Below are positions 62-23,058 of a DNA stretch of 37,910 bases, piece after piece. Source of the DNA: Komagataeibacter melomenusus (GTDB lineage Bacteria; Pseudomonadota; Alphaproteobacteria; Acetobacterales; Acetobacteraceae); the NCBI RefSeq assembly GCF_013155395.1, contig NZ_JABJWC010000035.1:1-37910 (forward strand). Direction: 5' to 3'. Both the position numbers and the translations under genes were made by a program. How positions within the stretch are numbered: position 1 is the stretch's first letter; each line of letters starts with the position of its first letter. A model generated the notes under the pieces. The model did not search any database, was not told the origin of the DNA, and saw only the letters and a program-made list of their open reading frames with translations.

Positions 62-126
62 AAAACCCGTTCTCTCTCAGGTCGGATTATAGCTTATTGC
101 CCTGTCCGAAAAATGGGGACCACCTC
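1..126 (-). mobile_element. IS3-family element, 5' end only (runs off left edge)
   Basis: On the minus strand the element begins near position 126 with a terminal sequence starting GAGGTGGTCCCC, which resembles the ends of several IS3-family elements, and reaches a transposase start codon about 65 bases in. The rest of the element lies outside the window. Its right end is fused directly to the interior of an aspartyl/asparaginyl beta-hydroxylase gene, so insertion interrupted that gene. The exact terminal base is inferred from where hydroxylase similarity resumes (position 127). Confidence 0.7.
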
Positions 127-643: not shown

Positions 644-2077
644 CCCTTCAATATCCAGACTGCTTTCCATGGTGGAAGCAACGGTTTCAAGGGCGCGTTC
701 CACCCGCGCTGTGTAATCCAGTCCATCGGAGCGTGCGCCCCATCTGTCCAGCCATGCCGCGCGTTGGCCAGTCATGTCAAACAGACGGTGCACATAGCAG
801 CCTGCAATACGACCGTCCGGGCTTATTGCTCCGTCCAACCGTCCGTCGTCGCATCTGATTAGGGGCATGACCCGGTGATGTGATCGAACTGTTTCCCCAC
901 AATGAATTTCGTAGCCACTGAATCGCGCGCTATCGGAAAGCGTCATGCCTGAAGTCTGGTTGATCTGCTTGTCACGGGTCAGAACGGTATCAACCTCCAG
1001 AAGTCCAAGTCCTGGTATCGTGGTCGGGTTCCCTTCTATTCCGTCGGGATCATTTATGGTCTGTCCCAGCATCTGATAGCCACCGCAGAGACCGAATACA
1101 TATCCACCCCGCCTGACGTGTCCCGCCAGATCAATATCCCATCCCTGCCGCCTGAAAAATTGCAGGTCTGCTATTGTCGCCTTGCTACCAGGAAGGAACA
1201 CGACATGCGCGGACGCGGGAAGGGGCTGCCCGGGCCGGATCCGTGTGATCTTTACATGCGTTTCACCTTCCAGCGCATCAAGATCATCGAAATTGGCAAT
1301 GCGGGGCATAAGGGGGACGGCTATCTCGATCCGTGAGGCCGCGGAACAGTCAACATCTTCAGGAATACTGTCTTCAGAAGGCAGTTCACGTATACTGTCT
1401 ATCCAAGGAAGAACGCCAAGCCCCTTCCAGCCGGTAAACTTTTCTATGAAGTCATACCCAGATTGGAAAATGCTGGCGTCTCCCCGGAGGCGATTAACGA
1501 TGAATCCCTTGATCAACTCACGGTCATCTGGATCAAGAACAGCATGGGTACCGGCGAGTGACGCGATAACGCCGCCCCGGTCTATATCGCCGATCATGAC
1601 GACCGGAACATTCGCGGCTCTGGCAAAGCCCATATTGGCGATGTCGCCCTGACGTAGATTGATTTCCGCCGGGCTGCCCGCGCCCTCGACAATCACGAGA
1701 TCGGATTGGCTACATAATGTCCTGAAGGCGGTCAGAACCTCGGGCAGGAATGCGGCCCGGCCACCGATAAAACTCGAAGCGTGCAGGTGTCCTTTTGCGC
1801 GTCCACGGACGATAACCTGCGCTGTATGATCACTTTCCGGTTTCAGAAGGACCGGATTCATAAGGGTGGAAGGGGCAATACGGCAGGCCTGCGCCTGAAG
1901 TGCCTGCGCCCGACCGATTTCACCTCCATCTACCGTCACGGCGGCATTGTTCGACATATTCTGGGGCTTGAAAGGCCGGACCGTCAGGCCACGGTTAGCG
2001 AAAACCCGGCATAAACCTGCCGTCAAAACGGACTTTCCGACATCGGATCCCGTGCCCTGCAACATGATCGCTGTCAT
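623..2077 (-). CDS. cobQ: Cobyric acid synthase
   Basis: The 484-residue product amidates the b, d, e and g carboxylates of adenosylcobyrinic acid a,c-diamide, using glutamine and ATP, late in cobalamin synthesis in the cytosol. The N-terminal dethiobiotin-synthetase-like domain shows GTGSDVGKS at about residues 8-16. The C-terminal class I glutamine amidotransferase domain has the nucleophile cysteine in FGLCGGYQMLG (about residue 331) and a GCYVHRLFD segment with the catalytic histidine. Length is normal for the family. The frame is open further upstream, but the ATG at 2077 places the P-loop at its usual distance from the N-terminus. It starts 4 bases after the stop of the preceding minus-strand gene, implying translational coupling. 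Confidence 0.95.
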   Translation of the reverse strand: MTAIMLQGTGSDVGKSVLTAGLCRVFANRGLTVRPFKPQNMSNNAAVTVDGGEIGRAQALQAQACRIAPSTLMNPVLLKPESDHTAQVIVRGRAKGHLHASSFIGGRAAFLPEVLTAFRTLCSQSDLVIVEGAGSPAEINLRQGDIANMGFARAANVPVVMIGDIDRGGVIASLAGTHAVLDPDDRELIKGFIVNRLRGDASIFQSGYDFIEKFTGWKGLGVLPWIDSIRELPSEDSIPEDVDCSAASRIEIAVPLMPRIANFDDLDALEGETHVKITRIRPGQPLPASAHVVFLPGSKATIADLQFFRRQGWDIDLAGHVRRGGYVFGLCGGYQMLGQTINDPDGIEGNPTTIPGLGLLEVDTVLTRDKQINQTSGMTLSDSARFSGYEIHCGETVRSHHRVMPLIRCDDGRLDGAISPDGRIAGCYVHRLFDMTGQRAAWLDRWGARSDGLDYTARVERALETVASTMESSLDIEGLLAIAR

Positions 2078-2081
2078 GGAA

Positions 2082-3053
2082 TCAGCCGCAGTCCGTAGCG
2101 CTCTTGATCGTGTCGGCAGGCACAAATCGCTCCATGCCTTCGTGACCCCAGGCTGCCATGCGAAGCAGTTCGATATGCATGCGCGCGCGACCACGTCTTG
2201 TAGCGGGTATTTTCAGATTTTCCGGTGTTCCATGTTGACGAACATGGGCCTGGAATGTGCCTGAAACCTGCAGGTCTTCCTCCATGCCGAATTCCTCAAG
2301 CAACGGCAGAAAGGATAGATCGGCAAGCCGGTCATAATCATGGGAATCATCATCGGACGGTCGGAACGGTGCCGCCGGATGAAGTGTCAGGAAAGGCTGC
2401 CAGCCTTCCGGAATGGGATCGAGGGCGGAGCAGGGTCGTTTCAACCTCACCAGTTTTGGCAGCAGGTGGGTATGGGCGCCGAGCGGAGAGTCTCCATCAG
2501 GTGCGGGAACGGGTTGGTAGACCTCCAGTCTGCCAGCAGGTGAAAGCATGACCCTGTGGGGCTGGACTTCCATCAGAAGCGCAAATGCTGCTGTGACGAC
2601 GGCCAATGGGTCATCCGTGTCAACAGCAAGGGCTTCGACCAGGCGGGCATTTTCTGTCCTTACGCACATCCGGACCCGGCCCACGCCAATTCCAAGATCA
2701 ATCAGCCACGCATCACGATCCTCTGGTCGGACAGCGTCCGCATCCTTTCCCAGAACCTTCAGGGTATGCTTCGCAGTCAGTTGTAACGGGCCGCATAACG
2801 CCATGCTATGCCGCCAGCGTCTGCCTTTTCCGACGAGAGAGTCCCACGCAAGGGCATGCAAGGGTTCGCTGGGACTAATGCGTATGGCACCGCGTTGGGT
2901 GACGATCTCCAGCCCGTCAGGACATGGGGTGAGGCAGACCCTATCATCCGGAACATGATGGAATTCGCCGATCGCACCAAATGTTCCAATGCTCCAGCCG
3001 TTACGGAGATCCAGCGCCAGTGAAGTCAGCATGGAAGGCGTGATACGTTTCAT
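2082..3053 (-). CDS. Conserved protein of unknown function coupled to cobQ
   Basis: A 323-residue soluble-looking protein with no membrane segments or signal peptide and no catalytic motif I recognise. It is rich in tryptophan and histidine, with segments such as GWSIGTFGAIGEFHHVPDD near the start. The start at 3053 has AGGA eight bases upstream; in-frame starts at 3074 and 3077 are alternatives. It is the first gene of a two-gene unit with cobQ (4-base gap), and it faces away from the btuB riboswitch. That context suggests a role in cobalamin synthesis or corrinoid handling, but this is inference from position only. Confidence 0.75.
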   Translation of the reverse strand: MKRITPSMLTSLALDLRNGWSIGTFGAIGEFHHVPDDRVCLTPCPDGLEIVTQRGAIRISPSEPLHALAWDSLVGKGRRWRHSMALCGPLQLTAKHTLKVLGKDADAVRPEDRDAWLIDLGIGVGRVRMCVRTENARLVEALAVDTDDPLAVVTAAFALLMEVQPHRVMLSPAGRLEVYQPVPAPDGDSPLGAHTHLLPKLVRLKRPCSALDPIPEGWQPFLTLHPAAPFRPSDDDSHDYDRLADLSFLPLLEEFGMEEDLQVSGTFQAHVRQHGTPENLKIPATRRGRARMHIELLRMAAWGHEGMERFVPADTIKSATDCG

Positions 3054-3136: not shown

Positions 3137-3165
3137 AGAACACCCCATCCGATCAGAACCGTTCC

Positions 3166-3355
3166 GACGGTGTCCCCTTTCGGGGGGATGAAAAGGGAAC
3201 AGAGTGCGGATTGCGATCCAATGCTCCGGCTGCCCCCGCAACTGTAAACGGTCTGTCCTTGCATTACCGGATGTCATGGTCCGGGCCACTGGAAACCGCG
3301 GTTTTCCGGGAAGGTTGTGCAGGACGCTACGCCGTGAGCCAGGAGACCTGCCGTC
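3166..3355 (+). promoter_or_regulatory. Cobalamin riboswitch upstream of btuB
   Basis: The region carries the conserved cobalamin aptamer elements in order: GGGAACAGAGTG, GCTGCCCCCGCAACTGTAA, GCCACTGG, CCGGGAAGG and GCCAGGAGACCTGCC. The outer P1 helix can be closed by GACGG (3166-3170) with CCGTC (3351-3355). When adenosylcobalamin binds, such RNAs reduce expression of the downstream gene. It controls the btuBFCD uptake operon that starts 130 bases later. Confidence 0.95.
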
Positions 3356-3408
3356 ATGATGGTTGCGACCGGGAACTGTCGGGCGGGGTGTCCTGACGGT
3401 GTGGTGTT

Positions 3409-3438
3409 ACAGGATTCCGTGCAGATCGGAAATCCTGT
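3409..3438 (+). promoter_or_regulatory. Hairpin between riboswitch and btuB (expression platform)
   Basis: ACAGGATTCCG (3409-3419) pairs with CGGAAATCCTGT (3427-3438) apart from one bulged base, leaving a 7-base loop. It sits between the aptamer and the btuB start at 3489 and has no U-run, so it is more likely part of a switching or translation-control structure than an intrinsic terminator. Confidence 0.5.
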
Positions 3439-3488
3439 GGCAGCGCGCTCTCGTGGCAACGATGATGTGACCGCGAGACCTGAACCAG

Positions 3489-5588
3489 ATGATCCTATTC
3501 CGTAATCTGCTGATTGCTTCCACCACGTTGATGACCATGGGGGTTGTAGTGGCGCGTGCCGATGATTCAGTCAGACAGCACGCGCCGCAAAAACAGTCCG
3601 CCAACCAGTACGTCATCGAGAATAAAAAATCGAAAGCCGTTGTTTCGTTGGGGGATACGGGTCTTCCCGAACTGATCAGCGTCAGTGCAGCCCGTCGGCC
3701 GACCTCCACCGATGATATCGGCACCAGCATGACCATCATCACGGAAAAGCAGATCCAGACCCAGCAGCGGCGCAGCCTGACGGATATTCTGGCACGCCAG
3801 CCGGGCCTGAACGTGGTCCAGACAGGAGGCCCAGGGGGCACGTCATCCATTTTCATGCGTGGTAATAATTCCAACGAGGTCAAGGTCCGCCTGGATGGCA
3901 TGGACATCAATGACGGAAGTTCCACCAATGGCATGTTCGATGCCGGTCAGTTTGTAACCGACGGCATGGGCCGGATCGAGATACTGCGTGGGCCTCAGAG
4001 CGGCCTGTACGGCGCCGACGCCATGGCGGGGGTTATCGACATTACCACGGCACAGGGGCAGGGCCGTTTCAAGCCGTTTGTCCGTATCGAAGGCGGTGGG
4101 TATGGTACCTTCAATCAGACCTTTGGCGCACGCGGCAGCAAGGGACGTTTTCATTATAATGTAGAATTCTCCCATTACCGGATGGATGGGTTCAACAATA
4201 TCCCTTCCTATATCGAGCGTTATTATGGGGCCAACCGGCAGCAGCGGCATGAAGGCAACCGGAATGACAACCGTGGCGTCAATATCAGGCTGGGTTATGA
4301 CGTCACCCATAATTTCGATCTTGGCCTGACCGCACGGCTGATACAGAGCAATTATCATTCCTACTCTCTGTATGACCTGCAAAGTGAAAATCTGTATGGT
4401 GATAAGGGTGTGCGGGAACAGAACAACCAGAACGAGGCCATCGTGCGCGGGACGGCCCATCTGGTTTCCTTTCACGGGCTTTTTGATCAGGTGCTTGGCC
4501 TTGGCTACATGACCAACCGCAACCGCTGGACGGAGACGGGCACGAGTTACGGCAGCCCGGTCAATCCAGACCCGGATTATTACCGTTCCAGCCGACTTAA
4601 GGTGGACTGGCACGGCACGTTCAATTTCAAGCAGTATGGCCAGCTTCTGATCGGTGCCGAACATTTCCATGATACGTTCAATACCAGCCATACGGCCTCA
4701 AGCATGTGGGACAGCGGATACGATACATCCGCCAGCATGGATACGACCGCAGGTTACGGGCAGTATCAGGGGAACTGGAACCATATTCTGTATGGTGCGG
4801 CCAATATTCGCTATGATGCCAATTCGCGCTACGGCAACCACGTGACATGGCGCGTGGCCCCGGCAATCCATGTGCCGGGCACCGGAACCATCATCAAGGC
4901 CAGCGCCGGTTCCGGTTTTCATGGTCCTTCGCTGTATCAGTTATTCGCAAATCAGGTGGGTGTGGGTTATTCGGAAAAGGGCAATCCCAACCTGAAGGCG
5001 GAACAGTTGATCGGCTATGACGCGGGTGTTGAGCAGAAACTGCTGCATGACCGTCTGAATTTCGGCGCAACCTGGTATGACAACCGGGTCAGGAACCTGA
5101 TCCAGTCCTCGCTTTCGATTGATTCATCATATGACTACAACTACTCCTACGCCAATGTGGCGAAGGCGCGGATGTATGGTGTGGAAGCCTTCCTGAACTG
5201 GAAGGCGCTGAGCAATCTGGAATTTAACCTGAGCTATACCTGGACCCACGCCCGGGATGAGACGAACGACGTCCAGTTGCAACGCCGTCCCCAGCACAAG
5301 TTTAATTTCAATACGACATGGACCCCCATTCGCGACCTGACCTTTTCGGGCAATATCCTGTATACCGGTGGCTGGCGTGATCTGCCGGTTATTGGCAGCG
5401 AGTCCTGCAGCACATGCGCCAAGGGGCATGGTTATTTCACCATCGACGTGGCTGCCAATTACAAAATCAACCGCTACGTTTCCGTCTATGCCCGCGCCGA
5501 CAACCTGCTGAACCGCCAGTTCGAGGACCCCATCGGCTATCTGCAGCCTGGTCGCGCCGGTTATGGCGGCTTCATGCTGAATTATTGA
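3489..5588 (+). CDS. btuB: TonB-dependent outer-membrane cobalamin receptor
   Basis: A 699-residue outer-membrane receptor that would import corrinoids using TonB energy. A signal peptide (about residues 1-24, ending VARA) is followed by a TonB box (ELISVSA, about 61-67). Then comes the plug domain with the SLTDILARQPGLNV and IEILRGPQSGLYGADAMAGVIDI motifs, and a long beta-barrel ending in an aromatic residue (MLNY). It is the first gene after a cobalamin riboswitch and is followed one base after its stop by the binding-protein and ABC genes of a B12 importer, which supports cobalamin as substrate. The start has only a weak ribosome-binding site, consistent with riboswitch control of translation. 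Confidence 0.9.
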   Translation: MILFRNLLIASTTLMTMGVVVARADDSVRQHAPQKQSANQYVIENKKSKAVVSLGDTGLPELISVSAARRPTSTDDIGTSMTIITEKQIQTQQRRSLTDILARQPGLNVVQTGGPGGTSSIFMRGNNSNEVKVRLDGMDINDGSSTNGMFDAGQFVTDGMGRIEILRGPQSGLYGADAMAGVIDITTAQGQGRFKPFVRIEGGGYGTFNQTFGARGSKGRFHYNVEFSHYRMDGFNNIPSYIERYYGANRQQRHEGNRNDNRGVNIRLGYDVTHNFDLGLTARLIQSNYHSYSLYDLQSENLYGDKGVREQNNQNEAIVRGTAHLVSFHGLFDQVLGLGYMTNRNRWTETGTSYGSPVNPDPDYYRSSRLKVDWHGTFNFKQYGQLLIGAEHFHDTFNTSHTASSMWDSGYDTSASMDTTAGYGQYQGNWNHILYGAANIRYDANSRYGNHVTWRVAPAIHVPGTGTIIKASAGSGFHGPSLYQLFANQVGVGYSEKGNPNLKAEQLIGYDAGVEQKLLHDRLNFGATWYDNRVRNLIQSSLSIDSSYDYNYSYANVAKARMYGVEAFLNWKALSNLEFNLSYTWTHARDETNDVQLQRRPQHKFNFNTTWTPIRDLTFSGNILYTGGWRDLPVIGSESCSTCAKGHGYFTIDVAANYKINRYVSVYARADNLLNRQFEDPIGYLQPGRAGYGGFMLNY

Positions 5589-5589
5589 C

Positions 5590-6429
5590 ATGAAAAGCGT
5601 GGTCGCAGGGATGATGGCCGGTTTCCTTGCCTGTGTCCCGTTGGCACCGGCATGGGCTCTCCCGCGCGTGGCTTCGCTTAATCTCTGCACCGACCAGTTG
5701 TTGCTGCTGCTGGCCGAACCGGGCCAGATCGTCGGTATTACGCCGCTCGCCCGGGATTGCTGGAGCGCGGTGCTGTGCGAACAGGCACGACAGGCTCCCG
5801 TATTGCGACCCACGGCGGAAAGCATCGTGGCATCCCATCCCGATGTCGTGCTGGGTGGCATCTATACCGCGGCCGTCGCGATGCAGGCGGGGCGGGAAGG
5901 GGGCGCACAGGTTGTAGCCCTGCCACCCGCCAAATCCCTGACGGATATTCCGGTCCAGATCATGACGGTCGCCAACGCCATCGGCGTTCCTGAGCGTGGG
6001 CAGCAACTGGCTATGGCCTTTGCCACGCGCCTGGCCTCCCTTTCGGTCGAGCCTGGTTCCACCGATCCCACAGCAGCCGTCTATGCGGCCAACGGCTTTG
6101 TCACCCATAAGGGCTCGCTTCCGGATGATGTCCTTGCCCATGCCGGCTTTCGTAATTACGCAACGATCATGGGGCACCAGTCATCTTCCCGTTTTTCCAT
6201 GGAACTGCTGATTGCACGGCCACCCGATCTCCTGATCCTTGACCGTTCGGGGAAGGGAACGTCCCTTGCACAGTCCATGCTGGATCACCCGGCGTTGAAG
6301 CAGGCCTTTGCCGGGCCGCATCATCTGGATCTGCCCGCACGGCTTTGGTTGTGTGGCCTGCCACAGACACTGGATAGTGTCGTCATGCTGCGTAACGCAC
6401 GGCACAACCTTGAAATGTCCGCCCCATGA
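5590..6429 (+). CDS. btuF: Periplasmic cobalamin-binding protein of ABC importer
   Basis: A 279-residue class III substrate-binding protein with a signal peptide ending near APAWA (about residue 24). Typical family segments are RVASLNLCTDQLLLLL, the DVVLGG strand after the first lobe, and a second lobe with PPDLLILD. It would capture the corrinoid delivered by BtuB and present it to BtuC. It begins one base after the btuB stop and its last codons overlap the btuC start as ATGA at 6426-6429. The substrate is assigned from the riboswitch and from adjacent btuB, not from ligand residues. Confidence 0.88.
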   Translation: MKSVVAGMMAGFLACVPLAPAWALPRVASLNLCTDQLLLLLAEPGQIVGITPLARDCWSAVLCEQARQAPVLRPTAESIVASHPDVVLGGIYTAAVAMQAGREGGAQVVALPPAKSLTDIPVQIMTVANAIGVPERGQQLAMAFATRLASLSVEPGSTDPTAAVYAANGFVTHKGSLPDDVLAHAGFRNYATIMGHQSSSRFSMELLIARPPDLLILDRSGKGTSLAQSMLDHPALKQAFAGPHHLDLPARLWLCGLPQTLDSVVMLRNARHNLEMSAP

Positions 6430-7433
6430 AACCTGCCCATCAAACCATGCTGCTGAACGTCATGCTTCTGGCTGGTGTCATGGGGCTGTTTGTTACCTCG
6501 CTCATGTGGGGAGAAACCCGCATCATGTTTTCACATGCACTGGCGGACCTGCTGGCCGGGCGGCATACCGCAGGCGCGATCATTGTGGAGCGCCTGCGCC
6601 TGCCGCGTACCCTGCTGGCCATCCTGGTGGGCGGGACGCTTGGCCTGTCGGGGGCGGTTCTGCAGGGCTATCTACGCAATCCGCTGGCCGATCCCGGCAT
6701 CCTGGGGGTATCAGGTGGAGCGGCACTTGGGGCGGTCAGCGTGTTCTATACCGGCCTCATGCAGGTGTCCATCGCGGCCCTGCCGCTGGGTGGGCTGACG
6801 GGGGCACTGTGTGCGGCGGCCGTGCTGATGGGACTGGTGGGACGTGGTGGCACGCTGGTGCTGCTGCTGGCGGGGGCTGCACTCAGCAGTTTTGCCGCAG
6901 CCCTGACAGCACTGGTGCTGAACCTTGTGCCCAGCCCCTATGCGTCATTCGAGATCATGCACTGGCTCATGGGGTCATTGACGGACCGGACCTTTACCCA
7001 TGTCTGGATCTGCCTGCCGGGTGTGGTGTGTGGCACGCTGCTCATGCTGTCCGCGGGGCGTGCGCTGGATGCGCTGACATTGGGGGAGGATGTGGCCGCA
7101 AGCCTTGGCTTCCAGCTGCATGGCCCGCGCGGCGTCCAGACGCGTATCGTGCTGGGCGCGGCGCTAGCCGTCGGCTCATGCGTGGCGGTTTCAGGAGCGA
7201 TCGGCTTTGTGGGGCTGGTGGTGCCGCATCTGTTGCGGCCGCTTGTGGGATATCAGCCATCGCGTCTGCTCCTGCCGTCATTTCTGGGGGGAGGCCTGCT
7301 GCTGCTGCTGGCGGATATGGTGGTGCGTGTGGTGGCGGTCGGGCCTGAACTGCAACTGGGTGTGCTAACGGCACTGGTGGGCGCACCGGTTTTCTTCGCC
7401 CGCGTCATCATGCTGAAAAGAACCGTGTCATGA
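6426..7433 (+). CDS. btuC: ABC transporter permease, FecCD/BtuC type
   Basis: A 335-residue inner-membrane permease with about ten hydrophobic segments. It carries the FecCD-family motifs RLPRTLLAILVGGTLGLSGAVLQ near residue 60, the NPLADPGILGVSGGA stretch after it, and GFVGLVVPHLLR in the coupling-loop region at about 260. It forms the dimeric translocation channel for cobalamin with BtuD. The start overlaps the btuF stop by four bases and the stop overlaps btuD in the same way, so the three proteins are translationally coupled. Confidence 0.9.
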   Translation: MKPAHQTMLLNVMLLAGVMGLFVTSLMWGETRIMFSHALADLLAGRHTAGAIIVERLRLPRTLLAILVGGTLGLSGAVLQGYLRNPLADPGILGVSGGAALGAVSVFYTGLMQVSIAALPLGGLTGALCAAAVLMGLVGRGGTLVLLLAGAALSSFAAALTALVLNLVPSPYASFEIMHWLMGSLTDRTFTHVWICLPGVVCGTLLMLSAGRALDALTLGEDVAASLGFQLHGPRGVQTRIVLGAALAVGSCVAVSGAIGFVGLVVPHLLRPLVGYQPSRLLLPSFLGGGLLLLLADMVVRVVAVGPELQLGVLTALVGAPVFFARVIMLKRTVS

Positions 7434-8188
7434 TCCTGCTGCAGGCACGCGACGTGTCGCTCCGGCGCGGGGATCGGGCTGTCGTCTCGGCCGCGTCCCT
7501 GACCCTTGCGCAGGGACGGGTCATTGGCCTGATCGGGCCGAATGGCGCGGGGAAAAGTACCTTCATGCGCCTGCTGGCGGGGCTGGAGGCACCCGATCAT
7601 GGGGATGTCCGGATTCTTGATCGCAGCATGGGCCAGATCTCTTCCGCGCTGCGCGCCCGGCAACTTGCCTTCATCCCCCAGGACGGGGGGACGCCGCCAC
7701 CCATGCCGGTGCGTGCGCTGGTCGCACTCGGACGCCTGCCGCATGGGCAGGCGGGCGACCATGCCGTCCGTCACCCGGCGGTGGGCCACGCCCTTGATGT
7801 CACTGGCCTGCAGGACCTGTGCGCCCGTCCGGCCAGCCACCTGTCAGGCGGGGAGCGGGCTCGCATGAATCTGGCGCGTGCGCTGGCGACCGATACGCCG
7901 GTCATACTGGCGGACGAGCCGATTGCGGCGCTCGATCCCGCTCATGCCCTGTCCATGATGCATCTGTTCCGCCAGCAGGCAGGGCAGGGAAAGGGGATCG
8001 TCGTCGTGCTGCATGATCTGGTTCTGGCGACCCGTTTCTGCGATGAACTGGTGCTGATGGATGATGGCGCCGTCATCCGCCATGGCCCGGCCCTGCAGGT
8101 GCTGGATGATGATATCATGCGCGTCGTGTACGGCGTAACGGTCCGGCGGGTCGAGGACGCGGTCCTTCCGTGGTCCCTGTGCCGCTAA
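7430..8188 (+). CDS. btuD: ABC transporter ATP-binding protein, BtuD type
   Basis: A 252-residue ABC ATPase that powers cobalamin import on the cytosolic face of BtuC. Walker A is GPNGAGKS (about 36-43), the signature is LSGGERAR (138-145), Walker B is VILADEP (158-164), and the switch histidine lies in VVLHD (around 197). It is the last gene of the btuBFCD operon and overlaps btuC by four bases. The next feature is another cobalamin riboswitch about 80 bases downstream; no clear terminator is visible between them. Confidence 0.9.
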   Translation: MILLQARDVSLRRGDRAVVSAASLTLAQGRVIGLIGPNGAGKSTFMRLLAGLEAPDHGDVRILDRSMGQISSALRARQLAFIPQDGGTPPPMPVRALVALGRLPHGQAGDHAVRHPAVGHALDVTGLQDLCARPASHLSGGERARMNLARALATDTPVILADEPIAALDPAHALSMMHLFRQQAGQGKGIVVVLHDLVLATRFCDELVLMDDGAVIRHGPALQVLDDDIMRVVYGVTVRRVEDAVLPWSLCR

Positions 8189-8270
8189 CGTGTGCGGCCC
8201 GCTGGGACATCCTGCCCATGACACCTTGCGTCCGGCCGCTCGGTTCGGGCACAATGTTGTCTTATCAAGT

Positions 8271-8481
8271 CGATGGTCCCACGCGAGTGGGTTAATAGGG
8301 AACGCCGTCACGCTCCGGCCGGGTCATGAACCCGGGAGCCAAGTCGGAGGCTGCTCCCGCAACTGTAGGCGGTATGCCGCCGGTTCATTTCACCCGGACG
8401 GGGTGAGTCACTGTTTCCGAAAAGGAAATGGGAAGGCAGAACCGGCTGGCCATGATCCGTAAGCCAGGAGACCTGCCATCG
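8271..8481 (+). promoter_or_regulatory. Cobalamin riboswitch upstream of the MetE-like/Rieske operon
   Basis: Conserved aptamer blocks are visible: GGGTTAATAGGGAACGCCG, GAGGCTGCTCCCGCAACTGTA, GAGTCACTGTTTCC, GGGAAGGCAGAACCGG and GTAAGCCAGGAGACCTGCC. P1 can form between CGATGGT (8271-8277) and GCCATCG (8475-8481). The downstream segment (8500-8526) is rich in CGG/GGGA and ends in the ribosome-binding site GGCGGGAGAA, so control is probably at translation start. It implies that the next two genes are made when B12 is scarce. Confidence 0.95.
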
Positions 8482-8530
8482 TCATATATCAAGCCGTCGG
8501 ACGGGATGTGCCGAAGGCGGGAGAAGCTTA

Positions 8531-9613
8531 ATGCCGGTATGGCAGAAAGCCGCGTGCCATGATGGCACGGCCGAAGGCGTGCCTGCGCGCCAGTATTCCA
8601 TAGATCACTTCCCGAATATCGCCAGACTGCTTACGGCGACACTTGGTTTTCCCGATGCTGATGAGATGCGTGGGGTGCGATGCCAGCACGCGGCAGGCAT
8701 TTCCCATATCGCTACGGCCAATAGCCCATGGCGGGACAGAGTTGTGCAGACTGCCCGCATGTTTGGCGTGGGCACCGACAATACAGTCACAGCCTGTGAT
8801 CCGATGCACGGCAATTACAGAAAGCCCATCCTCAGACCGGGGCAGGCGTTCCATCTTGCGCGCAACTGGCCCCGCGACGCATTTCTTGCAGCGGAACAAC
8901 TGGGTATCAGCACCCGGCCTGTTCTGCTGGGGCCGGTCAGTTTCCTTGCGTTATGCGGCATGACAAAGGGAGACAGTGTCGGCCAGGGACTGATGCGCCT
9001 GCTACCCGCCTATATTGAATGCTTCGAACAACTGAACAACGCGGGATGCTTCTGGATCCAGATTGATGAGCCAATCCTTGCCCATCCTGGCCTGCCCGCA
9101 GCCACGCTGACCCATATGGATGTTGCCTGGCATGTCCTCAGTGAAGCATCAAGGGGCACTTCACTTGTTCTGGTCGGAGGGAGCGGGGGCTTCGGGCGAC
9201 ATCTTCCTTTCGTGCTGCAGCTACCTTTTGGCGGCCTACATGTGGACGTTGTGCATGGCTATCGCGATTTCCCGTATGTCCTGCAGCATTTCCCGGCGCA
9301 TCACTGGCTCTCGCTGGGGCTGGTCGATAGCTGCAGCGCGGCGCCTACCCACATCGGCATGGCGCACGGCATCGTGGAACAGACGCTGCGTTCGCATCGG
9401 CCGGATCGTCTCATGATCGCGCCATCGGGTGCGCTAAGTGACAGCAATGCCCTGACCGATCCGGACATTACGAACGTCCTGCCGCAGAAAATGTCCGAAA
9501 TCGTGGCCGTAGCCAGCCGACGCACGATAGCACGTCGCAGCGCATCCATCCGCGACTTTTGCGAAAATGATATCCGTTTTGTCCCATGCGCTGATAACAG
9601 CGTGAGACATTGA
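8531..9613 (+). CDS. Stand-alone MetE N-terminal-domain-like protein
   Basis: The 360-residue protein resembles the N-terminal (folate-side) barrel of cobalamin-independent methionine synthase MetE. Visible landmarks are RPVLLGPVSFLALC, LLPAYIECFEQLNNAG, FWIQIDEPIL, GGLHVDVVHG, WLSLGLVDS and RLMIAPSGAL. The catalytic C-terminal barrel of MetE, with its zinc-binding HxC...C residues, is absent and its ligands cannot be found here. The first ~100 residues are divergent. A strong site (GGGAGAAG) precedes the ATG. A B12 riboswitch directly upstream fits the usual control of B12-independent substitutes. It is followed 7 bases later by a Rieske oxygenase gene. A direct methionine synthase role is doubtful without the zinc domain. 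Confidence 0.75.
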   Translation: MPVWQKAACHDGTAEGVPARQYSIDHFPNIARLLTATLGFPDADEMRGVRCQHAAGISHIATANSPWRDRVVQTARMFGVGTDNTVTACDPMHGNYRKPILRPGQAFHLARNWPRDAFLAAEQLGISTRPVLLGPVSFLALCGMTKGDSVGQGLMRLLPAYIECFEQLNNAGCFWIQIDEPILAHPGLPAATLTHMDVAWHVLSEASRGTSLVLVGGSGGFGRHLPFVLQLPFGGLHVDVVHGYRDFPYVLQHFPAHHWLSLGLVDSCSAAPTHIGMAHGIVEQTLRSHRPDRLMIAPSGALSDSNALTDPDITNVLPQKMSEIVAVASRRTIARRSASIRDFCENDIRFVPCADNSVRH

Positions 9614-9620
9614 AAATATC

Positions 9621-10709
9621 ATGACAGGAAATACATCGGAAACAGCCGCCCTGGATGGGGCTGCTTTGCCACAACAGGACATCCGTCGTGTCCGCAGCAA
9701 TCCGGATTTCTGGTATCCGGTTGCATGGTCTCGCGAGCTTCGTCGGGGCAGGGCGATTGGCGTACGGTACGCGGGGCAACCCATCGTGGTGGTCAGGCCC
9801 GAGGCCGGGGCCATTTTTGCGCTGGATGATGTTTGCCCCCACCGGCAGTTACCACTCAGCAAGGGAGAAGTGTGTGGAGATTTCATTCGCTGTGCATACC
9901 ATGGACTGAAATACAGTCGGCGTGGCCAGTGTTTTTCCCCCGGCATGAAGCTGGAAAACGAACCGCCACGACTGCGGACATGGGCATGCCGCGAGAAGGA
10001 TGGTCTCATCTTTGTGTTCATGGGGGATCTGGAAAAATCCGATAGCATTGCGCTGCCGGACTTTCCACGTGTCCGTGACCCCCATTACCGTACCCGCCGG
10101 TTTGGAAAAGTCGTGCAATGTCACTACAGCTTCATGCATGAAAACCTGATGGACATGAACCACCAGATTCTGCACAGCCGACTGGTCGGAAGCATGAAGC
10201 CACGGTTTCTAGGCATGGATCGGGGTGAGGATTTTGTGGAGGCCCGCTATACCTTTGCCCGCACGTCTGGCAGGCAGCCGCTGAGCGAGGCTCTGATTTA
10301 CGGGCAGCGTCGCAAGGATGGCCGGGATTTTGCCTATCGGGATGTCATGACCATCCGCACGCAGTATCCCTATCAGACATTGCGGATCGAGACGGAGGGG
10401 ATTGATGAACCGGTCATGGAACTGTGGATTGCATATGTGCCACAGGACCGGGAAGAATTGATCAACCGGGTATTTGGCCTGCTCTCCATACGCAGGTTGA
10501 AAATACCATTTTTACTGGATCTGGCGTGGCCGCTGCTGATCGCCTTTACGGAGCGTGTTTTCACAGAAGATCGCGAAATTGTTGAACTGGAGCAGCTGGC
10601 CTGGCGGGAGCAGGACGGCGACCGGAATCAGGAGGTCTTTCCAGTTATCATGGCGCTGCGCCAACTGCTTATCCAGAATGGTATGCCGTCCCAGAAAGAT
10701 ATCGGATAA
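9621..10709 (+). CDS. Rieske non-heme iron oxygenase, alpha-subunit type
   Basis: A 362-residue cytosolic oxygenase. The Rieske [2Fe-2S] ligands are C72-x-H74 and C91-x2-H94. The mononuclear iron site appears as ENLMDMNHQILH, giving D178, H181 and H185. Layout and spacing resemble VanA-type demethylases and related single-component oxygenases, which need a separate reductase; none is encoded nearby. It is coupled (7-base gap) to the MetE-like gene behind a B12 riboswitch, so it should be induced when B12 is low. The substrate is unknown. Demethylation, yielding a one-carbon unit, or an oxygen-dependent bypass of a B12 enzyme are both possible inferences. Confidence 0.85.
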   Translation: MTGNTSETAALDGAALPQQDIRRVRSNPDFWYPVAWSRELRRGRAIGVRYAGQPIVVVRPEAGAIFALDDVCPHRQLPLSKGEVCGDFIRCAYHGLKYSRRGQCFSPGMKLENEPPRLRTWACREKDGLIFVFMGDLEKSDSIALPDFPRVRDPHYRTRRFGKVVQCHYSFMHENLMDMNHQILHSRLVGSMKPRFLGMDRGEDFVEARYTFARTSGRQPLSEALIYGQRRKDGRDFAYRDVMTIRTQYPYQTLRIETEGIDEPVMELWIAYVPQDREELINRVFGLLSIRRLKIPFLLDLAWPLLIAFTERVFTEDREIVELEQLAWREQDGDRNQEVFPVIMALRQLLIQNGMPSQKDIG

Positions 10710-10718
10710 TAAACTGAT

Positions 10719-10755
10719 AGATGCCCATGCCCCGTCTCAAGGCGCATGGGCATCT
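10719..10755. terminator. Perfect 12-bp hairpin between convergent genes
   Basis: AGATGCCCATGC (10719-10730) and GCATGGGCATCT (10744-10755) are exact complements with a 13-base loop. The hairpin lies just after the Rieske gene stop and 25 bases before the end of the convergent DUF2147 gene. It can serve transcripts from both sides. No long U-run follows, so Rho-independent efficiency is uncertain. Confidence 0.65.
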
Positions 10756-10779
10756 TCTCCTGACCAGGCACCACGCAGA

Positions 10780-11253
10780 TCAGGTGCTCATTTTGCAGTT
10801 CGGGCCGATATGACCGCTATAAGGAAGCCATGTCTGTGTCTGTCCGAACATCGGAATCCCGAGATAGCCCCGTAACTTGAGTTGTCCGGACTGGTTAACC
10901 CACATGCGCGCTTGATACACATGATTGGTATTGGGGTCGAGAATGGACCCGTTCCACCGGTCTGGTTGATCCGGATCCGGCACGAAGTCCCGCAGCATGG
11001 GCAACCCACATTCCGAACGGCCCGTCTGGTCGCGTGGGATGTCATTACTATAGTTCAGGCCAACCAGCTTTCCACACAGATGGTCGCCACACCGTGTGAT
11101 CTCGAAAACACCCTTGTGATTTCTGGTGACCCATTGCCCCAGAACGGCGGGCGGAACTGTTGTCGCTGGAGGAACTTGTGCGTGAACAGCAGCCCCTCCA
11201 ATCATGATACTGAGTATTAGCGAGACACAGGTTGCTTTTTGCGCAATATTCAT
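10780..11253 (-). CDS. DUF2147-type secreted protein
   Basis: A 157-residue protein with a signal peptide (about residues 1-25, ending AAVHA). The mature domain shows the DUF2147 pattern: GQWVTRNHKGVFEITRCGDHLCGKLVGL at the start, a WNGSILDPNTNHVYQARM centre and a LRGYLGIPMFGQTQTWL end. Members are periplasmic or exported beta-rich proteins of unknown function, common in Acetobacteraceae. The ATG at 11253 is chosen because the hydrophobic leader follows it directly; upstream codons in the same frame would add a non-signal extension. It stands alone, converging on the Rieske gene. Confidence 0.85.
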   Translation of the reverse strand: MNIAQKATCVSLILSIMIGGAAVHAQVPPATTVPPAVLGQWVTRNHKGVFEITRCGDHLCGKLVGLNYSNDIPRDQTGRSECGLPMLRDFVPDPDQPDRWNGSILDPNTNHVYQARMWVNQSGQLKLRGYLGIPMFGQTQTWLPYSGHIGPNCKMST

Positions 11254-11530
11254 GATGTGTCTTTCGTCGCTTCGTACATGACTAAAATTATGGAACATCG
11301 GCGGATCTATCGGAGAATTCGGATCGAAAAGCGCATGATTGATGCCCCGAGATGCGCGCCATGGGAATGAGCGGCGAGGGTGCTATCTACGCCATGGACG
11401 TTTTCCATGATAGCCTTGTCGCGCCTGCTGCCCATTGCTGCACCGGCTTGAAGGGCCCAGTAAGGGTCTTCAGCAACATGCGGGCGTTTCAGGCCGGTTG
11501 TCAGAAACGCGCCGGTCCCGCGATGCTGCA

Positions 11531-11602
11531 TCACGATGTTTCCGCCAGAAACAGGAAACATGGGGGGCATTGATCGGCCGCATTGGTCTTCCCATGACGC
11601 AT
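11531..11602 (-). CDS. 23-codon ORF behind cobalamin riboswitch 3
   Basis: This short minus-strand ORF starts with ATG at 11602, seven bases after AGGAG, in the position the main start would have after the riboswitch expression platform. It encodes MRHGKTNAADQCPPCFLFLA and three more residues before TGA, and contains a CPPC motif. The following 200 bases continue open in another frame (ATG overlapping the stop as TGATG, ending near 11307) but match nothing I recognise. It could be a leader peptide, or the 5' remnant of a B12-regulated gene broken by frameshift. Confidence 0.35.
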   Translation of the reverse strand: MRHGKTNAADQCPPCFLFLAETS

Positions 11603-11650
11603 GGGAAATCTCCTGCCTTCGGTGCATCCCGCCCGACGACGTGGTTTGCA

Positions 11651-11862
11651 GACGATGGCAGGTCTCCTGGCTCACGGATCATGGCCAGCCAGTTCATGCC
11701 TTCCCATTCCCCAAGGGAAACAGTGGCTCACCCGCAGGTGAACGAACTGGTGGCATACCGCATACAGTTGCGGGAGCAGCCGCTGACTGGCTCCCGGAAC
11801 AGAATTGTCCAGCCAGAGCGTTACAGCGTTCCCTTTTAACCCGCTCGCGCGGGGCCATCATC
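11651..11862 (-). promoter_or_regulatory. Cobalamin riboswitch 3 (minus strand)
   Basis: Read on the minus strand, the blocks GGTTAAAAGGGAACGC, CGGCTGCTCCCGCAACTGTATGCGG, GAGCCACTGTTTCC, GGGAAGGCATGAAC and GAGCCAGGAGACCTGCC are all present. P1 can pair GATGGC (11654-11659) with GCCATC (11854-11859). The aptamer looks intact. Its downstream segment is nearly the same as that of the riboswitch at 8271 (CGGGATG..CCGAAGGCxGGAGA), but no recognisable B12-related gene follows. Confidence 0.93.
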
Positions 11863-12067
11863 AATCAAGGGTCTCATTCCATTATGCGCGAAGTGAGAGG
11901 AACGCCCAATTCCTCGAAACGCGATGCCGGCCTGCATGGAACGAAGAGCTTGTTGATGCCAATCAAACTTGTCGCTCCGATCCAATAAGTGTAGGTCACT
12001 CAGTGTCTTCATCTTCGAAACACGCGGGCGGGGATACACGCCCGCGCGTTAGCCACTATGTTGTCAA

Positions 12068-12553
12068 TCACGCGTTCGGGCTTGATGCGCTATACAAGTG
12101 CATGGCGGCGTCACGCGCGCCAATTGTCCATTGCGCGGAAATATAGGCCTGAAGCAAGGCCATGAGCGCCTCGACCCCGTGCGTGTCCGATAAATCGCGG
12201 GCTGTATCCACATAGGCGAGAGCTTCTAATAGCAGGGGCGAAAACAGTTCCTCAAGATAGTCGCCCCGCGCCTTCGGCGCAGCGGGTAATCGGCCAGCGG
12301 AAGGTACCAGACGTAGGAATGTTTCAAATCCATCCGCACGAATGCGGTCTTCCGGATTGGGGGCAGGGAGTTCAGTCTTGGCTATTGCCTGAATTACATC
12401 TTCCCGCAGAGGTGCGGATTCCATAAGGCGGGATACCGAGACAGAACGCTGACGTCGCCGCTGTTGTATGAGAATAAAATCAGGCGAATGGACGGGAGAG
12501 GCCATTTTTCGTTTCACCGGGAATCGGAGCGGATTAACTGGAAAGATCTGCAT
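12068..12553 (-). CDS. Unknown protein, second of an overlapping pair
   Basis: Up to 161 residues, with no signal peptide, no membrane segment and no motif I recognise. The first ~35 residues are basic (IQQRRRQR) and the rest is helical and acidic. The start at 12553 has AAGG about nine bases upstream and overlaps the end of the preceding gene by 20 bases; an ATG at 12505 is an alternative. The overlap points to co-expression with the 171-residue protein upstream. Both may belong to the transcript that begins at the minus-strand riboswitch near 13.5 kb. Confidence 0.6.
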   Translation of the reverse strand: MQIFPVNPLRFPVKRKMASPVHSPDFILIQQRRRQRSVSVSRLMESAPLREDVIQAIAKTELPAPNPEDRIRADGFETFLRLVPSAGRLPAAPKARGDYLEELFSPLLLEALAYVDTARDLSDTHGVEALMALLQAYISAQWTIGARDAAMHLYSASSPNA

Positions 12554-13049
12554 CGGACAGGCCTTCTTGAGTCAGGATGCGAGCATCCTCGTCACGCCAT
12601 GCCGCGATCATGTCTGGGTGCTGACTGAGCCATCCAATTCTCTCGGCACAGTATACAGGAACTCTGAATTTCTGGCCGCGCTGATTGTTCAGGATTGTTC
12701 CTGTCTGGTGCAGGCGCCCGTCTCGTGTCCAGAAAAGACGCTCCTGGTTGGTGATCCCCAGAATCCGTCGAACCTGTCGCGGCGTAAACGGACGAAAAGA
12801 CAGCGCGGTGATCTGTTTTTCCACCGAGCTGGCAATAGCCTCCAGAGCATCTGTCCTTTCACGCATGATGGCGGCTATAAAGCGGGCGAAAAGCTGCTTT
12901 ACCTCTGGCAGACGCAGGCGAAGGGACGAGGATTGATCCAGACAGGCCGCAATAAGCATCCGAATTGCAACAACCGGCTCTGGCTCCGTAATGGTCGCCA
13001 TTAGGCGCGACGCAATGGAAGGGGGTACCATGCTCATATCTGTGTTCAT
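12534..13049 (-). CDS. Unknown protein with possible C-terminal DNA-binding segment
   Basis: A 171-residue protein. The second half contains FTPRQVRRILGITNQERLFW followed by a basic turn and RVPVYCAERIGWL, which has the spacing of a helix-turn-helix and wing; this is a suggestion from pattern only. The N-terminal half is helical with no hydrophobic segment. Several in-frame starts (13049, 13034, 12998) have weak ribosome-binding sites, so the N-terminus is uncertain. It lies 67 bases downstream of the short ORF behind a cobalamin riboswitch and overlaps the next gene, forming a possible three-gene unit. Confidence 0.6.
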   Translation of the reverse strand: MNTDMSMVPPSIASRLMATITEPEPVVAIRMLIAACLDQSSSLRLRLPEVKQLFARFIAAIMRERTDALEAIASSVEKQITALSFRPFTPRQVRRILGITNQERLFWTRDGRLHQTGTILNNQRGQKFRVPVYCAERIGWLSQHPDMIAAWRDEDARILTQEGLSDADLSS

Positions 13050-13116
13050 GGATATTTCTTTTTATCAGAATAAAACGTAGGTACCTGTGTCCTGGGGTCA
13101 GGAAAGTACATGCGAA

Positions 13117-13248
13117 TTATAAGCCGCAGGTCGCGAGGTCTGTTGCTAAGGTTGCCTTACGAAGCCGGGATTCATTCAAGCACAGGCTAACGATCCGCAT
13201 ACATATGGAGGCTTGATAGATATATCGATACGCAAAAGAACGCGTCAT
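13117..13248 (-). CDS. 43-residue ORF directly behind cobalamin riboswitch 4
   Basis: Starts at ATG 13248 with AGGAG seven bases upstream, the best ribosome-binding site in this area, at the standard position after the riboswitch. The product MTRSFAYRYIYQASICMRIV... is basic with three cysteines and no clear membrane helix. I do not recognise it. It may be a genuine small protein, a regulatory leader peptide, or the start of a gene lost by rearrangement. The next gene on this strand begins 67 bases later. Confidence 0.4.
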   Translation of the reverse strand: MTRSFAYRYIYQASICMRIVSLCLNESRLRKATLATDLATCGL

Positions 13249-13294
13249 AGCTGATCTCCTGCCACCGGTCGGTCCCGCCCGGTAGCACGGTTTG

Positions 13295-13516
13295 CGACGG
13301 TAGCAGGTTTCCTGGCTCACGGATCATGGCAGCTCGGTCCTGTCTTCCCACTCCCTTACCGGAAGCAGTGACCCATCTGATCGGACATCAGATGATCGGA
13401 TCCGGCTACATACCGCCTACAGTTGCGGGCGCAGCTACCGACTGGCTCCCGGATCATCGCAGATCCCGCCAGAGCTTACGGTATTCCCTATTAATCCGCT
13501 TGCGCGGCACCACCGA
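13295..13516 (-). promoter_or_regulatory. Cobalamin riboswitch 4 (minus strand)
   Basis: Minus-strand blocks: GGATTAATAGGGAATACCG, GTAGCTGCGCCCGCAACTGTAGGCGG, GGTCACTGCTTCC, GGGAAGACAGGACCG and GAGCCAGGAAACCTGC. The last block has GAAACC instead of the usual GAGACC, a minor change. A short stem-loop (ATCTGATCGGACATCAGAT, 13375-13393) occupies a variable arm. It lies back to back with riboswitch 5 on the other strand, about 150 bases away. Confidence 0.92.
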
Positions 13517-13670
13517 CATAAAAGCTGGTCGCAATATGCGTCAGATTTCGTGATCTACGCAATATGGATTTTCCAAAAAACCTGCGATGAAAGAGCATGG
13601 TATCCTTCACACAGACGGGAAGCTGGCAGACTTGCACTGCTCGCGGGCGTGCGTCACACTACCTCTACAT
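13517..13670. promoter_or_regulatory. Divergent promoter region between two cobalamin riboswitches
   Basis: These 154 bases must hold promoters for two transcripts leaving in opposite directions, each starting with a cobalamin aptamer. The direct repeat CGCAATATG occurs at 13530-13538 and again at 13558-13566, 28 bases apart, which could be a protein-binding site. TTGCAC at 13632-13637 could be a -35 element for the plus-strand transcript. No gene is visible here. Confidence 0.5.
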
Positions 13671-13885
13671 CAAAGGCCCCGTGCGAACGGGTTAATAGGG
13701 AACGCCGTGCGTTCTGGCAGGACTTATCAGGGTCCGGGAACAAGTCGGTGGCTGCCCCCGCAACTGTAAGCGGAGAGATACCGGATCGTATGTCCTCTTA
13801 ATCAGGACCCGTCACTGGCTATGCTCAACAGGCCGGGAAGACAGAACCGATATCAAGGACCCGTAAGCCAGGAGACCTGCCTTTG
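13671..13885 (+). promoter_or_regulatory. Cobalamin riboswitch 5 (plus strand)
   Basis: Blocks visible: GGGTTAATAGGGAACGCCG, GGTGGCTGCCCCCGCAACTGTAAGCGG, CGTCACTGG, GGGAAGACAGAACCG and GTAAGCCAGGAGACCTGCC. P1 pairs CAAAGG (13671-13676) with CCTTTG (13880-13885) exactly. It is the closest of the five to the textbook core. The downstream segment has the same GGGCGGGGCGCCCG-type hairpin and a GGAG eight bases before an ATG at 13937, but the ORF that follows has only 16 codons. Confidence 0.95.
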
Positions 13886-13936
13886 TGACGTAACCAGTTC
13901 TATCGGGCGGGGCGCCCGACAGACGGAGTGGCAATC

Positions 13937-14069: not shown

Positions 14070-14342
14070 ATGCGTACATATTTTGGCGGCAACCAGCGAA
14101 CCGGCGCGGGTCGATCTTATTTTGGATCGGAAAGCCTGACTCCCGCGCAGAAGCGGGCCATTCTCTCCCTGCCAGAAGACGGTAGGTATGGAACCTTACT
14201 GGATGGAGGAAGCATCAGGTCATCTCTTGTACTAATGGGCTTTATTGCAGGTGGATGTTCTGCGCGGTGGGGTATGGAGCGCTCCCGCCTCACCGTACGC
14301 GGTCGGGAACTGCGGCACAAACTCAAAGGCTGCGAATTTTAG
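14070..14342 (+). CDS. Small protein of unknown function
   Basis: A 90-residue basic protein. The segment after residue 24 (TPAQKRAILSLPEDG ... MERSRLTVRGRELRHKLKG) has the look of a small winged-helix end, with a final LTxRGRELR similar to the LTxxGxxL ending of several regulators; this is only a pattern. AAGGGG lies ten bases before the start, while another ATG seven bases upstream in a different frame gives a poorer product. It stands alone between a riboswitch stump and a gene-poor stretch. Confidence 0.45.
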   Translation: MRTYFGGNQRTGAGRSYFGSESLTPAQKRAILSLPEDGRYGTLLDGGSIRSSLVLMGFIAGGCSARWGMERSRLTVRGRELRHKLKGCEF

Positions 14343-15961: not shown

Positions 15962-16361
15962 ATGTCCGAGACCACGTTTCTCTACTGACGCCTACGATCC
16001 GTCCGGACTGATCGCGGCCGAACGGCTGAGTAGCATGCTGCATATCACTCGTGGCGAACTGGCTGCCACCCTGGGCCTGTCCCGCGACGCCGTCTCCAAA
16101 AGTGCCCGCCTCGGCCGCCCCACCACCCAGGCGAGGCTGCGCGACATGGTCGAGATCCTCAATCGTGTCCGGCCATGGGCGGGCTCAGCCCAACAGGCTT
16201 TCGCATGGTATCGGTCACAGCCCCTGCCCTCCTTCGGTGATCAGACTGCCGAGGCGCTCGTTCGGGAAAGATACGCCGACGCCGTCCGGCGCGCTATCTC
16301 GATCGGATTGCAACCGGCGGTTACGCGCGAGGTTTACCGGACGGGTGTTCCGGGCTCATAA
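15962..16361 (+). pseudogene. Xre/MbcA/ParS-type antitoxin of a RES module, frameshifted
   Basis: The residue string resembles RES-partner antitoxins. An N-terminal MSETTF (from 15962) stops early, then TDAYDPSGLIAAERLSSMLH (second frame) continues into a helix-turn-helix (GELAATLGLSRDAVSKSARL) and the MbcA/ParS-like C-terminal domain (WAGSAQQAFAWYRSQPLPSFG). Near 16290 the frame is lost again: RYLDRIATGGYA, a typical antitoxin end, lies in another frame. At least two frameshifts are therefore needed to restore it. An intact ORF from 16035 would give a shortened protein missing the N-terminus. Confidence 0.7.
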
Positions 16362-16835
16362 TCCCCGCTGGTCTTTCACCCCACTGTCAGGCGACGGTGC
16401 GGCGCTTCATGGAGGCCGGTTCAACCTGGACGGCACACCTGCCCTTTACACATCTCTGCGGATGGAGACTGCCTGGCTCGAGGCCCAGCAAGGCTTCCCG
16501 TTCAAGCCTCAGCCCTTGACCATCTGTGGCTATGACGTCGATAGCGAACCCGTCCTCGATCTGACCGACCCGTCCAATCTTGATAATCGCGGTTTCTCCT
16601 CCCCTGCCCCTGGGAAGATCTTGCCGATCAGGGCAAGATGCCGCCCTCGTGGGAACTCGCAAAAATGCTCACAGCCAATGGTGTGGCTGGCATCATCGTC
16701 CCGAGTTTTGCCCCCGGAGCAATGGAAAATGACAGGAAGCTGGTCTTCTGGCAGTGGTCAGACAGTCTACCCTCCCGCGTAACCGTCATCGACGATGAAA
16801 AGCGTTTGCCAGCAACCGCAACGTCATGGTCGTAA
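16328..16835 (+). pseudogene. RES-domain toxin (NAD-degrading type), frameshifted
   Basis: The first part reads RFTGRVFRAHNPRWSFTPLS, GGRFNLDGTPALYTS and TAWLEAQQGFPFKPQ, the RES-family core with the R, Y and E residues of the NAD-binding pocket. The frame changes within a C/G run near 16605-16620. The rest (PWEDLADQGK, PPSWELAKMLTANGVAGIIVPSF, NDRKLVFWQW, RVTVIDDEKRLP) continues in another frame to 16835. The full sequence is collinear with the family, so one small indel destroyed it. Loss of the toxin with its broken antitoxin is consistent with decay of the module. Confidence 0.75.
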
Positions 16836-16979
16836 ACCGAGAATAAATGAAGGACTTGCGACGATATTAGTCGGTTAAAAGTCCCAACGGAAGCCATTGG
16901 GACCATTACGTCACGTCGATCACCAACCATAACAACGGGCGCCCCTCTTTTTGAGGAGCGACAAACAACCAAGCGGCAA

Positions 16980-23048: not shown

Positions 23049-23058
23049 TCCTCTCCTG

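Follow-up and report, generated by a model that had tools for sequence, protein, structure and literature searches.

Genes that lie under riboswitches for cobalamin (B12) and serve neither its uptake nor its synthesis usually mark B12-free ways of living. The two genes considered here, which together with such a riboswitch occupy positions 8257–10709 of a 37,910-nucleotide contig of Komagataeibacter melomenusus (NZ_JABJWC010000035.1, assembly GCF_013155395.1; the whole contig is called the window below), resemble parts of several described systems. One is the cobalamin-independent methionine synthase MetE (TIGR01371), which combines an N-terminal domain (PF08267) with a catalytic zinc domain (PF01717). 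In the split MetE of archaea, a separate MetE-N-type protein is encoded in an operon and accompanied by a separate catalytic subunit, according to PMC7857596. The same source describes the MesD/MesX methionine synthase as oxygen-dependent and B12-independent. Finally, the SdmA and VanA/dicamba-type Rieske oxygenases share their domains with the second gene. No account of the two genes as a pair was found in the open-access literature searched.

The riboswitch of the pair (8257–8494, plus strand) matches RF00174 over the full model length with 95.0 bits (gathering score 31.5; E = 1.3e-22), and its leader can be aligned with eight other riboswitch leaders. A previous sequence-only reading of this DNA had recognised the element and set its start at 8271, which falls 14 bases inside it. 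The first gene, A_N (8531–9613, plus strand), starts 36 bases past the aptamer, with GGGAG preceding its start codon, and encodes a 360-amino acid protein homologous to the N-terminal half of MetE (PF08267, 106 bits against a cut-off of 27, E = 3.5e-30) in a match that spans only profile positions 118–289 of 313. In profile searches the catalytic zinc domain PF01717 scored 16.5 bits in A_N, under its cut-off of 21, and the full-MetE model TIGR01371 gave 105 of 930 bits, which bears out the earlier description of the product as a MetE N-domain lacking the zinc domain. The second gene, A_R (9621–10709, plus strand), had been called a Rieske oxygenase lying 7 bases downstream, and both the identity and the spacing agree with ours: it encodes a 362-amino acid Rieske non-heme iron oxygenase of the VanA_C type (PF00355, 70.9 bits; PF19112, 56.8 bits), whose ATG at 9621 follows the A_N stop, ending at 9613, after a gap of 7 bases. 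No strong ribosome site was seen before A_R, which suggests translational coupling of the two genes. The region 8257–10709 is almost certainly one operon under B12-riboswitch control.

The Rieske cluster ligands of A_R (C72xH74 and C91xxH94) and the residues of its mononuclear iron motif with two histidines (N/D...H...H, with DxxHxxxH; N175, D178, H181 and H185) are invariant in all 46 A_R-type proteins compared. Its nearest named family is SdmA, the 4beta-methylsterol monooxygenase (NF052579), and its best match among solved structures is DdmC (3gb4, E = 7e-24). A_R shares the Rieske and VanA_C domains with SdmA and the VanA/dicamba-type enzymes, but it lies far under the SdmA cut-off (132.7 bits against 600), and both control by a B12 riboswitch and a MetE-N partner fall outside the models of these families. 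Purifying selection acts on both genes. Against Komagataeibacter diospyri (L049), the ratio of nonsynonymous to synonymous substitution rates (dN/dS) is about 0.15 for A_N (at a dS of 1.33, near saturation) and about 0.07 for A_R. The same values were obtained against L050, with A_N compared in part, and the much closer L047 gave 0.34 and 0.13, respectively. None of these comparisons revealed a stop codon within A_N or A_R, and chance open reading frames are ruled out by purifying selection together with the conserved gene order.

A_N is directly followed by A_R in all 12 named loci beyond the window (L043–L050 and L053–L056), several of which represent the same genomes as L032, L038, L040 and L041; at L050/L038, A_N is cut by the contig end and its 5′ part lies on L037. 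A riboswitch of its own precedes A_N by cmscan in the window and at L044, L047, L048, L049, L054 and L055, and by a 15-base core motif at the other loci that have this stretch, except L037. The surrounding island also holds a paralogous operon, B, which is composed of its own riboswitch (found before the first gene at L033, L036, L052, L054 and L055), a MetE-N gene (B_N, about 41–42% identical to A_N), a Rieske gene (B_R, about 32–35% identical to A_R) and a gene for an Asp/Asn beta-hydroxylase. B_N is followed by a whole B_R at L033, L055 and L056 and by a cut B_R at L051–L054; B_N itself is retained as a whole, diverged copy at L033, L051, L052, L054 and L055, is split in two pieces at L053 and misses its start at L056. 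Operon B is interrupted in plasmid pKNA07 of K. nataicola, in K. medellinensis and in K. saccharivorans, and in the window genome (G000) it was seen as pieces only, at contig ends. Co-occurrence of MetE-N and Rieske genes behind B12 riboswitches is thus conserved in two paralogous operons. A mixed form exists in genome G135 (L036), where B_N precedes A_R with both frames open and the B riboswitch kept; the 25 codons of A_N left at the junction suggest a deletion.

A_N and B_N form one clade (100/99) that is separate from 34 full-length MetE proteins. Among the 110 MetE-N columns conserved at 90% or more, the A_N of the window keeps 54 and two B_N proteins keep 53 and 47; across the five proteins compared, 38 columns are retained throughout and 41 by no protein at all. 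A_N retains MetE barrel motifs, among them VLLGPVSFL, QIDEP, GLHxDxV and LGLVD, but its first part is reshaped, and it is paired with an oxygenase. R-E-L-K and the K of E-M-T-K-W, which we take from the annotation of E. coli MetE to be folate-binding residues, are conserved at 90% or more in the 34 MetE proteins, except for the E of R-E-L-K. In A_N, the place of R-E-L-K is taken by R-G-V-R (window) or R-G-V-A (K. diospyri); B_N has no counterpart of this motif. The K of E-M-T-K-W has been substituted or lost, and the alignment in this part is gappy. By sequence, the motifs presumed to bind folate thus appear to be mostly lost in A_N. Among the features that A_N and B_N proteins share and that are new relative to MetE are a tryptophan (W200), a glycine-rich V-G-G-x-G-G-F and a proline (P272).

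The searches covered two genome samples, one of 289 genomes of the class and one of 200 genomes of the family. No MetE-N-only protein was found outside G000 in the 289 class genomes (E 1e-10), every other match lying in a frame of at least 637 amino acids. In the family sample MetE-N-only genes are present in six genomes, and two further matches lie in shorter frames (566 amino acids in G107, where MetE is read in two frames, and 465 amino acids in G094). A genome scan with two peptide patterns gave 10 loci, all of them in acetic acid bacteria. A full or split MetE was ruled out for the window genome, which has no PF01717 match at E 0.001; in this it also differs from the archaeal split enzyme with its separate catalytic subunit.

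The Rieske proteins encoded behind riboswitches form one clade (100/100, tree with six such rows); B_R, which has a very long branch, could not be placed. None of the 33 Rieske paralogue loci scanned has a cobalamin riboswitch, seven more (L096 and L135–L140) being outside the scan; two paralogues, with 64% and 54% identity, are found in G000 itself. The chromosomal neighbourhoods of the paralogues yielded no function, and many of the clustered frames there are spurious ones in GC-rich DNA. In Acetobacter ascendens and A. pasteurianus, an A_R orthologue (73–75%) lies behind a cobalamin riboswitch, has no MetE-N gene and is divergent from MesX-MesD. The Rieske gene therefore looks like the older B12-controlled part of the pair. 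A cobalamin riboswitch stands upstream of a whole or broken Rieske gene at L093, L106, L108, L128, L151 and L152. At four of these loci the riboswitch-proximal start codon that corresponds to that of A_N opens a short frame before the Rieske gene (45 codons at L093 and L106, 42 at L128 and 26 at L108); in Acetobacter, the stretch that separates the riboswitch from the Rieske gene was searched for a remnant of MetE-N and gave no significant match, only these short frames. Genome G169 holds a whole Rieske gene (L108) and a broken copy beside MesX-MesD (L128), with a riboswitch before both, and L151 and L152 have kept the riboswitch and MesX-MesD next to a broken Rieske gene. A further plasmid of A. 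pasteurianus (L107) has an interrupted Rieske gene near CbtAB and OprB, with no riboswitch directly upstream of it. In K. diospyri (L049), MesX-MesD (16584–18626, plus strand) is found next to the island together with an orphan cobalamin riboswitch (15991–16222, minus strand), which is probably a leftover of the Acetobacter-style divergent arrangement of riboswitch and Rieske gene.

Our preferred explanation is that the pair forms an oxygenase module for times of B12 shortage, and as a whole we hold it to be possible and tentative. From the class of the riboswitch we infer that B12 bound to the leader shuts the operon off, so that the proteins would be made when B12 is scarce. A_R would be the catalytic member, from a riboswitch-controlled and often plasmid-borne branch of a Rieske family of which the same genome has copies without a cobalamin riboswitch. 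A_N would descend from MetE, of which it represents the N-terminal half but not the catalytic one, and the chances seem evenly balanced that it serves as a dedicated non-catalytic partner of A_R, either in binding and presenting the substrate or in assembly. At low B12, A_R and A_N would perform an O2-dependent oxidation that is useful when B12-dependent enzymes stall. For the class of substrate we offer a weak best guess, a polycyclic lipid of the membrane, for instance a hopanoid; methylation of hopanoids at C-3 by HpnR would then come to a halt.

HpnR is the B12-dependent enzyme of hopanoid C-3 methylation. It is encoded in all seven sampled genomes with a riboswitch-clade Rieske gene, compared to 20 of 200 overall (uncorrected for kinship), and the window genome has both HpnR and HpnJ. 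One relative of the Rieske gene adjoins HpnI, with HpnN further along. Among near-complete Acetobacteraceae genomes, squalene-hopene cyclase is present in 48 of 48 with the Rieske family and in 103 of 121 without it (Fisher p 0.002, uncorrected for kinship). As a separate observation, the window encodes at 31411–33009 a B12-binding radical SAM protein with DUF4070 that scores under the HpnR cut-off, and a similar protein is encoded on contig C69 of the same genome.

Several observations weigh against the B12-shortage oxygenase module or parts of it. Its hopanoid part suffers from the fact that HpnI/HpnN lie beside just one of the 38 paralogue loci searched with these two proteins, that two Burkholderia relatives adjoin msrB-dipZ-msrA instead, and that the association with squalene-hopene cyclase is confounded by kinship and weaker in the full 200-genome family sample (50/52 versus 126/148, p 0.045), where the two genomes with the Rieske family and without the cyclase are G039 (87% complete) and G163 (73% complete). 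A hopanoid-type substrate is a rather doubtful lead and not a result. As to control, no riboswitch was found between the ABC (ATP-binding cassette) gene and A_N in K. saccharivorans LMG 1582 (L037, 480–760); A_N begins directly behind that gene, so that the riboswitch before the TonB receptor is the only one left for the pair to share. As to function, the Rieske gene is broken in the Acetobacter-type loci L107, L128, L151 and L152 and is thus dispensable there. B_R has no mononuclear iron motif, so oxygenase activity of the pair cannot be taken for granted in all copies. No electron-transfer reductase was seen adjoining the pair, the genome not having been searched for one. Finally, A_N evolves faster than A_R by dN/dS, and its role may thus be looser than that of a subunit. 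The most specific version of the proposal, that a freed MetE N-barrel with most of its folate site gone has become a dedicated substrate-bearing Rieske partner and that the pair runs an O2-dependent reaction in place of a B12-dependent one, such as a hopanoid modification, under B12 shortage only and in acetic acid bacteria, appears unlikely.

The sequence-only reading had tentatively suggested an oxygen-dependent one-carbon or methyl-transfer bypass and had already set the pair apart from MesD/MesX. The latter distinction stands, since MesX is a PF08908 protein and not a Rieske protein, MesD is a core PF01717 protein, PF08908 has no match in A_N or A_R at E 1, and neither of the two genes is within the pair, although both are present beside its relatives. 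A link to methionine is upheld by neighbourhood: the Acetobacter Rieske gene lies beside MesX-MesD, and several Komagataeibacter and Novacetimonas islands carry metE or MesX-MesD. The pair itself as a bypass for methionine synthesis or methyl transfer is not upheld. The best surviving alternative, which we consider unlikely, would nevertheless place the pair in B12-independent methionine or one-carbon metabolism, with the Rieske protein releasing or supplying a methyl or formyl group or oxidatively demethylating trapped 5-methyl-folate, and with A_N holding the one-carbon carrier. Riboswitch control fits this proposal, as do the positions of the neighbours. All five Acetobacter-type MesX loci that were read (L093, L106, L128, L151 and L152) show the orthologous Rieske gene, whole in two and broken in three, in divergent orientation to MesX-MesD, MesX having been found in 15 Acetobacter plasmid records, four of which were read. 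metE occurs with a LysR gene on two plasmids, those of K. medellinensis and Novacetimonas hansenii, and in G135 a strong cobalamin riboswitch (132.8 bits) precedes a full-length metE (L036, 4531–7151) close to the B_N/A_R pair. In addition, the window genome has MetH and no protein with a PF01717 match, as a check for a full metE or metH revealed, so that a methyl-folate trap could arise when MetH stalls. Against a one-carbon role stand the absence of the zinc domain from A_N, the degradation of its R-E-L-K, which B_N lacks, and the change at the K of E-M-T-K-W, with the folate role of both taken on trust from annotation and the alignment gappy. The Rieske gene also occurs without MetE-N, MesX-MesD persists at L128, L151 and L152 where the Rieske gene is broken, and a genome that gave no PF01717 match retains the pair. 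Moreover, MesD and MesX suffice in E. coli, according to PMC7857596. The pair is very probably no methionine synthase in its own right. On the present data, it shares a regulon with B12-independent methionine synthases without being a component of them or a further enzyme of this kind.

The pair lies in an unusually dense B12-controlled island (3151–13898), which is plasmid-borne in close relatives. Of the nine cobalamin riboswitches (RF00174) above the cut-off in the whole genome, the window has five, which all lie within 10.7 kb and of which two are on the minus strand. Upstream of the pair are a truncated remnant of the operon B gene for the Asp/Asn beta-hydroxylase (97–420, plus strand; PF05118; 97 residues align at 97% identity with the C-terminal portion of the intact L033 copy), a gene for a CobQ-like cobyric acid synthase (626–2194, minus strand; GATase_3 and CbiA domains, so named in pKNA07), a cobalamin riboswitch (3151–3369, plus strand; 109.5 bits) and the TonB-dependent receptor and ABC transporter genes that follow it (3489–8188, plus strand; names from pKNA07). 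Judging from this riboswitch and the gene order, these transport genes probably serve corrinoid uptake. Downstream, a gene for a DUF2147 protein (10780–11298, minus strand; PF09917) lies behind its own riboswitch (11640–11874, minus strand; 95.2 bits), two small genes, hypL and hypK (12068–13049, minus strand), lie behind another (13285–13529, minus strand; 80.3 bits), and a fifth riboswitch (13657–13898, plus strand; 100 bits) precedes an open reading frame of 90 amino acids (14070–14342). Neither hypL and hypK nor the 90-amino acid frame gave a significant Pfam match; relatives of hypL and of this frame follow the Rieske gene in Acetobacter. Farther away, at 22158–25093, three adjacent genes that lie near FetAB-like transport genes in pKNA07 look like a small biosynthetic cluster: one for a class I methyltransferase, one for a member of the iron-containing redox enzyme family and an uncharacterised one.

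A plasmid search matched 84 records, and the four with 92% or higher were read. On pKNA07 of K. nataicola, A_N and A_R occur in the same order and with 100% identity, ten other window genes compared being 99.9–100% identical, and related islands are found on plasmids of K. medellinensis, N. hansenii and K. saccharivorans CV1. The stretches of pKNA07, K. medellinensis and N. hansenii include CbtAB, an OprB porin, CobQ, the TonB receptor with ABC genes, the pair, DUF2147 and the small genes, and the latter two plasmids additionally hold the LysR gene and metE mentioned above. The K. saccharivorans CV1 stretch starts at the record edge, and no CbtAB or OprB was found in the part read. Not all relatives are on plasmids, as the G135 and G169 loci lie on 2.9 Mb contigs.

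These surroundings raise a second alternative, namely that the pair acts on corrinoids or on the acquisition of cobalt or corrinoids, through O2-dependent uptake, remodelling, a capture step or the synthesis of a small metal-binding compound. The pair stands directly behind the TonB/ABC genes and near CobQ, CbtAB and OprB are part of the island on three of the four plasmids, and at L037, where the pair has no separate riboswitch, it comes directly after the ABC gene as though it formed one operon with the uptake genes. However, the window genome encodes both CobG and BluB above their cut-offs, so that those two O2-dependent steps need no filling, and at the Acetobacter loci L093 and L106 the annotation shows no transport genes of this sort next to the Rieske gene. 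We regard this alternative as distinctly unlikely, and replacement of CobG or BluB by the pair is ruled out by the presence of both. A link to a B12-dependent ribonucleotide reductase was likewise rejected, the NrdJ match being below its cut-off and belonging to a protein named ribonucleoside-diphosphate reductase subunit alpha, which is not of the B12-dependent kind. A third alternative, that A_N is mainly a regulatory or coupling frame that fills a translated slot behind the riboswitch and yields a protein of little function of its own, would suit the short Acetobacter frames (26 to 45 codons) in its place and its fast divergence, but is quite improbable for a gene that is open over 360 codons, retains 54 of the 110 conserved columns of MetE-N and shows a dN/dS of about 0.15 (with dS close to saturation), and whose diverged relative B_N has been retained whole at five loci.

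The analysis delineates a Rieske clade that is marked by B12 riboswitches in two groups of food bacteria and that has, in one of them, a repurposed half of MetE as a putative partner. Should its reaction be found, it would be a B12-independent, O2-dependent step that is new to the open-access papers searched, and would illustrate how a spare enzyme domain can take on another function. With the losses that have occurred naturally among the relatives, and with the mixed operon, the roles of both genes can be tested directly.

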